Position numbers and translations under genes: made by a program | Shown: piece by piece, positions 25,816 through 38,086 of the stretch | Layout of the letters: each line of letters begins with the position of its first letter | How positions within the stretch are numbered: the stretch's first letter is position 1 | The notes under the pieces: model-generated | Databases searched by the model: none | What the model was told of the DNA's origin: nothing | What the model saw: the letters and a program-made list of their open reading frames with translations, nothing else | From: Gracilimonas sp. | GTDB taxonomy: Bacteria; Bacteroidota; Rhodothermia; Balneolales; Balneolaceae | DNA: 64,000 nucleotides | Assembly (NCBI RefSeq): GCF_017641085.1 | Contig: NZ_JAEPPI010000003.1 | Span: 510,894-574,893, forward strand | Direction: 5' to 3'

Positions 25816-26907
25816 ATGATGAACGAGATAATTTCAAGCACCAATATCACAGTACATCCAACGGAACAAAGCCGCATTCATGAGGTTGATTTTAATAACC
25901 TTGTGTTCGGTAAGAAGTTTTCGGACCATATGTTCGAAATGAAGTTTTCAGAAGGCGAGTGGAATGAGCCTGTGATTAAACCTTTTGGGACTTTTGAAGT
26001 TACCCCGGCCTCTAACGTGCTACATTACGGGCAGGCTGTTTTTGAAGGGATGAAGGCATTTTATGTGGATGAAAACACGGTGAACATTTATCGCCCGGAA
26101 ACGCATCACGAACGGTTCAATCATTCCTGTCGCAGAATGTGTATCCCGGAAACCAGTTACGAGACTTTTATTGATGCTCTGGAAACACTGATTCGCTTAG
26201 ATCATCAATGGGTGCCCAAGAAAAACGGTACGGCGCTATACATCAGGCCGTTTATTTTTGCTTCAGACAACCTGCTTGCCGCCCGTTCATCCGATAAATT
26301 TACGTACCAGATTATTACCTCACCGGTTGGCGCCTATTACGCAGAAGGCTTTAACCCCGTTTCACTGACCACACCCGAAAAATATGTACGTGCGGTTGTA
26401 GGCGGAACCGGAAATGTAAAAACGGCCGGAAATTACGCCGCCAGTTTTCTTCCGGCTCAAAAGGCCAAAGAAAAAGGCTTTACACAGGTACTCTGGTTAG
26501 ACGCCAAAGAGCAGAAATATATTGAGGAAGTGGGGACTATGAACATTCACTTCCTGATTGGCGACACATTGATTACTCCGGGACTTAATGGTTCTATCCT
26601 TCCAGGTGTTACCCGCCGTTCGGTGATTGCTTTAGCCAAAGAATGGGGCTACAACGTTGAAGAACGCAAGATTTCAATTGATGAGGTTTTTGAGGCCTAT
26701 GAGGACGGAAGCCTGAAAGAAGTTTTTGGTTCAGGTACCGCAGCGGTTGTATCTCCGGTTGGCCTGATTGAGCACAATGGAAAAACTATAGAGCTGGATC
26801 GGGAGAAGCCCGGCGAATTTGCCCAGAAATGCTTCAACGAAATTACCGATATCCAGTACGGTCGAAAAGATGATCAGTTTGGCTGGGTGCATCCTGTAAA
26901 CATTTAG
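25816..26907 (+). CDS. ilvE: Branched-chain amino acid aminotransferase
   Basis: This 363-residue PLP enzyme is a class IV type II BCAT. The motif GGTGNVKTAGNYAASF carries the PLP lysine K202, followed by EEVGTMN and GVTRRSVIALA. It makes or breaks down valine, leucine and isoleucine with glutamate or 2-oxoglutarate. ATG codons at 25816 and 25819 are both possible starts. The crcB gene begins two bases after its stop, so the pair is one transcript. Confidence 0.94.
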   Translation: MMNEIISSTNITVHPTEQSRIHEVDFNNLVFGKKFSDHMFEMKFSEGEWNEPVIKPFGTFEVTPASNVLHYGQAVFEGMKAFYVDENTVNIYRPETHHERFNHSCRRMCIPETSYETFIDALETLIRLDHQWVPKKNGTALYIRPFIFASDNLLAARSSDKFTYQIITSPVGAYYAEGFNPVSLTTPEKYVRAVVGGTGNVKTAGNYAASFLPAQKAKEKGFTQVLWLDAKEQKYIEEVGTMNIHFLIGDTLITPGLNGSILPGVTRRSVIALAKEWGYNVEERKISIDEVFEAYEDGSLKEVFGSGTAAVVSPVGLIEHNGKTIELDREKPGEFAQKCFNEITDIQYGRKDDQFGWVHPVNI

Positions 26908-35514: not shown

Positions 35515-36189
35515 ATGGCGCATACACTGAAGATTAAAGACATTCAAAATGTAACGCACGACGTTAAACAGTTCACCCTCGAAAAGCCTGAGGGATACAC
35601 ATTCGAACCCGGCCAGGCGACCGAAGTTGCTATAGACAAGGATGGCTGGCGGGACGAAAAGCGGCCGTTTACTTTTACCTCACTCAATGAAGACCCGGAC
35701 CTCGAATTTGTGATTAAAATCTATCCCGACCATGACGGGGTTACTGAGCAGCTTGGTAAGCTGCAAGTTGGAGATTCCCTGATTGTGGACGACGCATGGG
35801 GAACCATTCAATATAAAGGTGAAGGTGTGTTCCTGGCCGGTGGAGCTGGTGTAACCCCGTTTATAGCCATCTTCAGAGACTTGCATAAGAAGGGAAAAGT
35901 AGGGGATAACAAACTCATCTTCTCCAATAAAACGGAAGAGGATATCATCCTGAAAGAGGAGTTTGAAAACATCCTGGGAGATAATTTTGTGAATGCCATC
36001 ACGAACGAAGAACCTTCCGGAGATCACCTGTTCCTGGATGGCTTTATCGATAAGGAGTTTTTAGAATCTCAAATCGATGACTTTGATCAGCCATTCTACG
36101 TTTGCGGGCCAATGCCTTTCAATGAAGCCGTGATGGGATACCTCAAAGAGCTGGGTGCCGATCCTGATGCTCTTGTTTTTGAGGAATAA
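35515..36189 (+). CDS. FAD-binding ferredoxin/flavodoxin reductase-like protein
   Basis: This 224-residue protein has the ferredoxin-NADP reductase fold. RPFTFTS near residue 46 binds FAD, LAGGAGVTPFIAIFRDL near residue 105 binds the pyridine nucleotide, and YVCGPMPFNEAV near residue 196 is the C-terminal NAD(P) motif. There is no iron-sulfur domain, so it works with a separate electron partner, not seen here. It lies 63 bases after the NTF2-like gene. Confidence 0.87.
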   Translation: MAHTLKIKDIQNVTHDVKQFTLEKPEGYTFEPGQATEVAIDKDGWRDEKRPFTFTSLNEDPDLEFVIKIYPDHDGVTEQLGKLQVGDSLIVDDAWGTIQYKGEGVFLAGGAGVTPFIAIFRDLHKKGKVGDNKLIFSNKTEEDIILKEEFENILGDNFVNAITNEEPSGDHLFLDGFIDKEFLESQIDDFDQPFYVCGPMPFNEAVMGYLKELGADPDALVFEE

Positions 36190-36350: not shown

Positions 36351-37274
36351 ATGACGCACGGCACACATAATGCGGTTTATGATCCGCGTAACGAAGAAGT
36401 ACTTATTTATGTGAACGGGGAGCTTTTTCCCCGTAACGAAGCCAAAATATCTGTTTTTGACAGCGGGTATTTGGTGGGGGATGGCGTTTGGGAAGGATTT
36501 CGCCTACACAAAGGAGTGCTCGTCTTTCTGAAAGAACATTATGACCGGTTGTTTCAGGGCGCCAAAACGGTGGGCATGGATTTGGGCATGAGCCGCGATG
36601 AAATAACCAAAGCTATTTGGGAAACCCTGGACGCCAACGACATGAAGGATGGCGTACACGTGCGCCTCATGTTTACCCGGGGAATCAAGAAAACCCCATC
36701 TCAAGACCCACGGCTCACCGTATCAGGGCCTAATCTTGTAATTATCGCAGAATACAAGAAAGCAGACCCGGAGAGCCGAGACAAAGGAGTGACGTTGTTC
36801 ACCAGTACCATTCGCCGGGGTTCGCCCGATTACCTGGATCCCCGGCTTAACTGCCATAGCAAGATCCATGAGGTGCAGGCACTGGTCCAAGCCCTGGAAG
36901 CCGGCGCTGATGAAGCTTTGATGCTGGATGTAAACGGTTTCGTTTCTACCTGTAACGCCACTAACTTTTTTATGGTGAAGGACGGTGAAGTGTGGACATC
37001 CACCGGTCAGTATTGCATGAATGGTATAACCCGCGGTAAAGTGATTGAAATTTGTGAACAAGCAGGAATCCCCTGTTTCCAGAAGAACTTTTCCTTATTT
37101 GATGTGTATGGAGCAGATGAAGCTTTTGTAACCGGAAGTTTTGGAGGGCTCACTCCCGTAACCGGGATAGACGGCCGAACAATTACGGAAACTGTACCCG
37201 GAACCATGACTCAACGCCTTCAGAAACTGTATGAGCAGGCTATTGAGGCACAAGTGAATGAAGTTAAAGTATAA
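36351..37274 (+). CDS. Class IV aminotransferase (BCAT/D-amino acid type)
   Basis: The ATG at 36351 gives 307 residues; a TTG four codons upstream is unlikely. It is a fold type IV PLP enzyme with VFDSGYLVGDGVWEGFR near residue 36, the likely PLP lysine K171 in NCHSKIHEV, and NGITRGKVIEI plus GSFGGLTPV in the C-terminal half. It differs from the second class IV enzyme, ilvE at 25816. A P-loop sulfotransferase-like gene follows 83 bases later. In Arabidopsis, branched-chain aminotransferase-like proteins of about 555 residues carry both domains in one chain (recalled, not searched). Confidence 0.88.
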   Translation: MTHGTHNAVYDPRNEEVLIYVNGELFPRNEAKISVFDSGYLVGDGVWEGFRLHKGVLVFLKEHYDRLFQGAKTVGMDLGMSRDEITKAIWETLDANDMKDGVHVRLMFTRGIKKTPSQDPRLTVSGPNLVIIAEYKKADPESRDKGVTLFTSTIRRGSPDYLDPRLNCHSKIHEVQALVQALEAGADEALMLDVNGFVSTCNATNFFMVKDGEVWTSTGQYCMNGITRGKVIEICEQAGIPCFQKNFSLFDVYGADEAFVTGSFGGLTPVTGIDGRTITETVPGTMTQRLQKLYEQAIEAQVNEVKV

Positions 37275-37357
37275 TTTTTTAATATAGATACAGGTCGTCC
37301 GCAGAGTAGGATTATTTGAGAAGGACCGGACTGACCGCTAAAGTAAAAAACGGAGAA

Positions 37358-38086
37358 ATGTTAAAGACAAAACGAATTTGTTTGTGGAGCGGTCCACGAA
37401 ATATCTCAACAGCACTTATGTATTCTTTCGCCCAGCGCGATGATTCCACGGTTTTTGATGAGCCTTTGTATGCTCATTACCTGGCAAATACCGATGCCAA
37501 AAACTATCATCCCGGTGCTGATGAAGTACTGAAAAGCCAAGAAAATGATGGACAGAAAGTGGTGGATGAAATTATCCTGGGCGATTACGATACCCCGATC
37601 GCTTTCTTCAAGAATATGACCCACCATCTGGTAAACCTGGATTGGAGCTTTCTGGAAGAAACGATTAACGTCATCCTGACTCGCCCACCAAAGGATATGC
37701 TGCCTTCATATGCAAAGCAGGTTAAGAACCCAACTATGCAGGATGTCGGATATGCCAAACACCTGGAAGTGGTCAAGTACCTGGACAATATTGGCAAGAA
37801 GCCACTCATAGTGGATTCGAAAGATATTCTGCAGTATCCGCAATCCCGTCTTCGTGAATTATGCGGTACACTTGGTATTCCTTTTGATGAAGCCATGCTG
37901 AAATGGCCGGCCGGTCCCCGTAAAGAAGACGGTGTTTGGGCCAAATATTGGTACCATAATGTTCACCGCTCAACAGGGTTCAGGGCTTACAAATCCAAGA
38001 ACGAGCCTTTTCCTGAGGAACTGGAAGACCTGCTGGAAGAATGCCAGGAAGCCTATGATGAGCTGCTGGAATACGCCGGGAAGTAA
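37358..38086 (+). CDS. P-loop sulfotransferase-like protein
   Basis: The ATG at 37358 follows a GGAGA run and gives 242 residues; the longer form from TTG 37316 is less likely. The phosphosulfate-binding P-loop is LWSGPRNISTAL (residues 9-20), followed by MYSFAQRDDSTVFDEPLY. The 3' phosphate-binding segment is probably VDSKDILQ near residue 155. PAPS-dependent sulfotransfer is suggested by fold; no substrate is known. The preceding class IV aminotransferase gene is on the same strand and the pair resembles a plant two-domain protein split into two genes. Confidence 0.82.
   Translation: MLKTKRICLWSGPRNISTALMYSFAQRDDSTVFDEPLYAHYLANTDAKNYHPGADEVLKSQENDGQKVVDEIILGDYDTPIAFFKNMTHHLVNLDWSFLEETINVILTRPPKDMLPSYAKQVKNPTMQDVGYAKHLEVVKYLDNIGKKPLIVDSKDILQYPQSRLRELCGTLGIPFDEAMLKWPAGPRKEDGVWAKYWYHNVHRSTGFRAYKSKNEPFPEELEDLLEECQEAYDELLEYAGK

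Follow-up and report, generated by a model that had tools for sequence, protein, structure and literature searches.

The branched-chain aminotransferase-like (BCAL-type) proteins of Arabidopsis are single chains of about 555 residues, in which an N-terminal sulfotransferase-like region is followed by a C-terminal class IV aminotransferase. The 3-dehydratases ColD and E1 belong to a different PLP fold class. PMC8987622 describes these enzymes as relatives of aminotransferases that have a histidine in place of the catalytic lysine, use PMP as cofactor and expel a hydroxyl. According to PMC3903477, the sulfotransferases CurM and OLS sulfonate a beta-hydroxyl and thereby activate it, after which it is lost as sulfate. 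The Pfam family Sulfotransfer_5 (PF19798) is among nine profiles used for screening plants in PMC12506393, a text without the term aminotransferase, and it figures as an entry in a table of PMC11625862. Both protein families treated here are known ones, and a lysine-less aminotransferase-like relative from Variovorax has a solved structure. In the open-licence literature searched, we did not find the systematic pairing of a sulfotransferase with a lysine-less aminotransferase-like protein, nor a paper that connects such a pair to PF19798 or to a BCAL-type protein.

The gene pair and its distribution

The window, that is, the whole stretch of 64,000 nucleotides of Gracilimonas sp. that was analysed, carries two neighbouring genes, called AT and ST below:

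36351 to 37274, forward strand: AT, a lysine-less class IV aminotransferase-like protein of kind A (PF01063), 307 aa from ATG 36351
37352 to 37355, forward strand: GGAG, seen in the sequence 5' of the ST ATG, a likely ribosome-binding site
37358 to 38086, forward strand: ST, a sulfotransferase of the Sulfotransfer_5 family (PF19798), 242 aa from its first ATG

The two open reading frames are present where the preliminary description had placed them, AT before ST on the same strand and 83 nt between the AT stop and the ST ATG, and their 307 + 242 residues give the sum of about 549 that it had quoted. In Pfam profile matches, AT reached PF01063 with an E-value of 8.1e-42 (144 bits, cut-off 28.5), and the sulfotransferase-like character proposed for the second gene was borne out by a match to PF19798 at E 8.5e-47 (159.9 bits, cut-off 23.2). 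The nearest NCBIfam model for AT was the branched-chain aminotransferase subfamily PRK08320.1 (251 bits), below every listed curated cut-off, and a separate, ordinary branched-chain aminotransferase (BCAT) of the same genome (25816-26907) passes two NCBIfam BCAT cut-offs (438 bits vs 307). A promoter and terminator scan around the pair gave scores not clearly above those of shuffled sequence.

AT and ST occur together far more often than chance would give. In a set of 57 related genomes, all of the same order and some of the same genus, that of the window included, ST was found in 22 and AT in 21, with one match per positive genome in each search, and the two sets were identical except for G027, which has an ST remnant without AT (Fisher p ~1e-14, shared ancestry ignored). 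No AT was detected at E 1e-40 in the 36 of these genomes without an intact ST. The remnant in G027, a genome of the same family as the window's, covers 61 residues (C2:970150-970332) and is accompanied by no AT of kind A or B; this genome apparently lost both partners together. In a wider sample, PF19798 occurred in 43 of 296 genomes drawn from the phylum (42 over the cut-off), and a scan of named genomes yielded at least 582 ST relatives, of which the best 80 loci were compared. Pairs were found in Balneolota, Bacteroidota, Planctomycetota, Poribacteria, Acidobacteriota, Chloroflexota, Actinomycetota, Verrucomicrobiota, Pseudomonadota and others (phyla as in the records). Adjacency is not peculiar to this genome, which supports the preliminary description on this point; the listing of genomes with adjacent or fused genes that it proposed returned adjacent genes in many phyla and one fused open reading frame.

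Of 121 ST loci, from which repeats of a place had been dropped (the identical places L041/L072 and L043/L073 remained), 97 had an AT whose alignment covered at least 200 residues and 24 had none. The AT-bearing loci comprised 62 of kind A ordered AT-ST, 34 of kind B ordered ST-AT and a single kind B locus ordered AT-ST, the two kinds being defined below. Three of the 24 AT-less loci (L082, L099, L139) had a piece of AT at the contig end. A genome-wide search in 18 genomes with a full ST and an AT-less locus, from which L123, L124 and L126 were left out, found a kind A or kind B AT at another place in 16, so that AT and ST lie apart in these 16 genomes; neither kind was found genome-wide in G333 and G338, whose assemblies may be incomplete. 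The AT survey left out three genomes with ST (G106, G163, G244). In Planctomycetota, a sample of 35 genomes gave 30 loci, five genomes yielding none; 23 of these loci had an AT (22 ST-AT, and L188, AT-ST and Asn-type), and seven had none within the stretch fetched, one of which (G340) was taken into the genome-wide search.

No third conserved gene was found, since neighbour clusters reached at most 15 of 98 stretches, with many members being close relatives. The SnoaL-like, flavin reductase, symporter and asparaginase neighbours drop out or move elsewhere while AT-ST persist, and the two genes stay adjacent in genomes without any other tested window neighbour nearby. A gene for a FAD/NAD-binding reductase-like protein (35515-36189), just upstream of AT, lies near the pair in seven of the eight other genomes of the genus but was not near it in any more distant genome of the comparison. 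Two queries of viral contigs returned no relatives.

The pairs are of two kinds. Kind A, to which the window belongs, has Asn in the column of the catalytic lysine and the order AT then ST, and kind B has His there and the order ST then AT. This correspondence held in 63 of 63 Asn-type pairs and in 55 of 56 His-type pairs, L143 being the only kind B pair ordered AT-ST. The window's order had been described as the reverse of the fused plant order, and this is so: AT comes first here, and the plant-like order is that of kind B. In an AT tree with a canonical outgroup (a quick method with SH-aLRT support only, L188 left out), kind B formed a clade with support 98, kind A one with 93, and kind A together with A' one with 99; A' denotes Asn-type lysine-less AT relatives such as those seen on Proteobacteria plasmids without an ST nearby, and its rows did not form one group within that clade. 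In the ST tree, the A and B labels need three changes, AT-less loci not being counted. Together, the match of kind with order and the trees indicate that kind, order and ancestry go together.

In one locus from an uncultured planctomycete (L102), both domains lie in a single uninterrupted open reading frame of 543 aa from stop to stop, ST then AT. Counted along the 539 aa that begin at its ATG, PF19798 covers residues 4-233 and PF01063 residues 280-503. Because this was the only frame with both domains among the best 80 of at least 582 named-genome ST loci, the fusion may be a sequencing error. The model of the fused protein had a mean pLDDT of 69.8, its ST half being largely unusable, and its ST rows were misplaced in the alignment. 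Since the pair travels together over many bacterial groups and one fusion exists, a two-part reaction probably links ST and AT.

Probable PAPS dependence and a proposed common substrate

Two features of ST concern its sulfonate donor:

37388 to 37411, forward strand: P-loop-like SGPRNIST, S11 to T18 of ST, with S11, R14, N15, S17 and T18 invariant in 17 rows; a candidate for the 5' P-loop of PAPS-dependent sulfotransferases
37682 to 37708, forward strand: Arg109 to Ser117 of ST, these two residues being invariant in 17 rows and aligned with the R and S of CurM and OLS; they are spaced like the R and S with which sulfotransferases bind the 3'-phosphate of PAPS

When the ST profile was compared with PDB sequences, CurM (E 6.7e-8) and OLS (E 2.2e-6) were the only clear matches; SGPRNIST, conserved among the ST rows, falls outside the stretch aligned to them. 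PAPS is very probably the sulfonate donor of ST. Genomes with ST are nearly always able to make PAPS, as seen from APS kinase. The window's own genome encodes one (TIGR00455, 226 bits, cut-off 138.7), and among the related genomes an APS kinase over the cut-off was present in 21 of 21 with the pair, against 15 of 36 without it; that of G011 is over the cut-off but has an internal stop. Of another 60 genomes with ST, 59 had the kinase, as did 8 of 20 Planctomycetota that have no ST (the first 20 of 211), which gives 80 of 81 ST genomes against 23 of 56 ST-less ones overall, in a Fisher comparison that ignores shared ancestry and genome completeness. However, PAPS also serves sulfate assimilation, and in one ST genome (G163) no APS kinase was found.

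A distant PF19798 sulfotransferase (31% identity) was observed on the Dolichospermum plasmid pDol_DET69_01 (L187:7004-7789), with genes for an adenylyl-sulfate kinase, an amidohydrolase, a 2OG-oxygenase and a MATE protein as neighbours. Gene sets of this type occur in saxitoxin-type clusters, and this setting hints that the PF19798 family acts on small molecules.

The reading that we favour, and hold to be fairly probable, is that the PAPS-dependent ST and its lysine-less PLP-fold partner form one functional unit with one small substrate. ST would move a sulfonate from PAPS onto a small molecule, and the AT-like partner would bind or process that same molecule. That both proteins act on one substrate is likely; physical contact between them is somewhat more to be expected than not, and binding of PMP or PLP by AT has about an even chance. 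Against one unit stand the A' relatives without ST, the 16 genomes in which AT and ST lie apart, G333 and G338, and the seven Planctomycetota loci that have no AT within the stretch fetched.

The aminotransferase-like pocket

The following codons of AT bear on what this partner might do:

36546 to 36548, forward strand: Arg66, presumably the phosphate-cup Arg known from BCAT structures, present in all rows
36687 to 36689, forward strand: Lys113, present in all 141 lysine-less sequences, with Gly in the five canonical rows
36756 to 36758, forward strand: Lys136, present in 139 of the 141 lysine-less sequences, with Ile or Trp in the five canonical rows
36849 to 36851, forward strand: Asn167, by ungapped alignment the position at which canonical BCATs have the PLP Schiff-base lysine
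36861 to 36863, forward strand: Lys171, whose column is Tyr in five canonical rows and Leu or Gln in kind B
36948 to 36950, forward strand: Thr200, by alignment the column of the Glu that we take to stand at the pyridine nitrogen in canonical BCATs
37029 to 37031, forward strand: Thr227 of GITR, by the same assumption the phosphate-cup Thr, present in all rows but one that is gapped

The window's DPRLNCHSK aligns without gaps with NPRIKSLNY of canonical aminotransferases from four Poribacteria genomes (L169-L172), in which ST is present and the canonical BCATs retain the lysine. The preliminary description had taken K171 for the PLP lysine; the residue exists, but the alignment rules it out in the canonical role, the column of which is N167. 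In 124 AT rows from ST loci (some places repeated), this column held Asn in 76, His in 48 and Lys in none, and in 22 further Planctomycetota rows His in 21, Asn in one and Lys in none. The first of these tallies and the later alignments omit class IV proteins with less than 150 bits or 200 aligned residues, such as a second, distant one 1.7 kb from ST in L058. The residue alignment, from which identical sequences and ordinary aminotransferases below 200 bits were removed, comprised 64 rows of kind A, 69 of kind B, eight of A' and five canonical ones, four of which are from Poribacteria. Because the lysine column itself was used to define its groups, it is the two tallies that show the absence of Lys at this place in paired ATs.

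The Glu column was Thr in 64 of 64 kind A rows, Glu in 69 of 69 kind B rows and Ser or Thr in A'. His103 and Glu134 were found in all 141 lysine-less rows, and, like Lys113 and Lys136, occur at their places in none of the five canonical rows. Among the marks of a class IV transaminase, the window's AT thus lacks the lysine and the Glu and has the Arg and Thr of the phosphate cup. Its predicted model (pLDDT 87) matched best the structures 9j32 and 7z79, with Z 37. In the proposed unit, the AT-like protein has lost the Schiff-base lysine, with Asn in its place in kind A and His in kind B; kind A has lost the Glu as well. Given the kept phosphate cup together with Lys113 and Lys136, the protein would most likely hold PMP, PLP or some other ligand with a phosphate group, but not through the customary covalent bond to a lysine.

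The same losses might mean that the AT-like protein is non-catalytic, binding only PLP, PMP or substrate and holding or regulating ST, a role with which the close spacing in many loci and the one fusion would agree. We regard this as rather unlikely, as many pocket-side residues are invariant over several phyla, apparently more than a scaffold needs.

Alternatively, the Schiff base might be formed by a relocated lysine, the candidates being K171 for kind A and, for either kind, K113 or K136. All 64 kind A rows have Lys at K171, K113 and K136 are kept as listed above, and the five canonical rows have no Lys at any of these places; yet the K171 column is Arg in five of eight A' rows and is not Lys in kind B, which makes such a relocation improbable. 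In kind B, a Lys two positions ahead of the canonical column seemed to be a further catalytic candidate and was rejected, as another residue stands there in 5 of 69 sequences (Arg, Asn, Thr, His and Val, in Planctomycetota).

Last, an ordinary transaminase that makes an amine or amino acid by PLP transamination, the product then being sulfated by ST, is very improbable, for although PF01063 membership, fold and phosphate cup are kept, the canonical lysine is absent in the tallied paired ATs and the pyridine-nitrogen Glu in kind A. The ordinary transamination assumed in the preliminary description is not supported, since K171 lies outside the column of the canonical PLP lysine, where the window has Asn and kind B has His; on its sequence, the window's AT is unlikely to be an ordinary transaminase.

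For one functional unit of ST and its lysine-less partner, a more specific reaction can be proposed. ST would sulfonate a hydroxyl of a carbonyl substrate, and a PMP-loaded AT would eliminate the sulfate, which Lys113 and Lys136 would hold; in kind B the His would act as base, in the way that ColD expels a hydroxyl. Kind B could follow such a route; kind A, with Asn and Thr, could not do so in the same way. In the related genomes each positive genome has one AT match, never both kinds, which suggests that kinds A and B do the same job. Since the ColD route does not fit kind A and yet both kinds apparently do the same job, we consider sulfation plus elimination to be quite improbable.

Kept over many phyla, in genomes that make PAPS and with a lysine-less AT fold, the pair points to a widespread reaction, and none is named for it in the open-licence papers searched. 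The names branched-chain or D-amino acid aminotransferase are probably wrong for such genes. With two separable subunits in the bacterial pairs and one natural fusion, the function of the plant fused proteins would become open to tests in easily handled laboratory strains. If sulfation plus elimination were true, the same machine would exist as two bacterial genes, as one fused planctomycete protein and, if the plant architecture is as given above, in plants.

Comparison with known systems

The aminotransferase-like protein of Variovorax paradoxus (7z79; N174K mutant 9j32) is 50% identical to the window's AT in the structural alignment and shares the fold of its model (rmsd 1.7-1.9 at the Z given above). 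Like the window's AT, its wild type has Asn in the lysine column; it has Ser in the Glu column, where the window's AT has Thr. The title of the entry 9j32 gives the mutation as N174K, and the column of the window's N167 is where its sequence departs from that of 7z79, so the depositors presumably also treated this column as the place of the lysine. The A' relatives differ from the window's AT in their setting: 20 plasmid records were found, and in the six stretches examined (L181-L186) no ST lies within 7 kb, four being beside amino-acid ABC transporter genes. Three of those four also have a chloride channel gene nearby and two have proC; these plasmid loci possibly serve the uptake and breakdown of an unusual amino acid. 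L188, with an A'-like AT, does adjoin an ST.

Canonical BCATs (the archaeal 5mqz and 5e25, and the genome's own at 25816-26907) share the fold and the phosphate cup with the window's AT and retain the lysine and the Glu, both of which it is without. ColD and E1, with their His at the catalytic place, resemble kind B, whereas the window's AT has Asn. On the side of ST, the CurM (4gbm) and OLS (4gox) sulfotransferases have the conserved R...S pair that aligns with that of ST; they are polyketide-synthase domains, and the similarity is weak and covers about half of ST. Finally, the fused planctomycete frame has the layout given above for the Arabidopsis BCAL-type proteins; relative to these, the window's pair consists of separate genes, in reverse order and of kind A.
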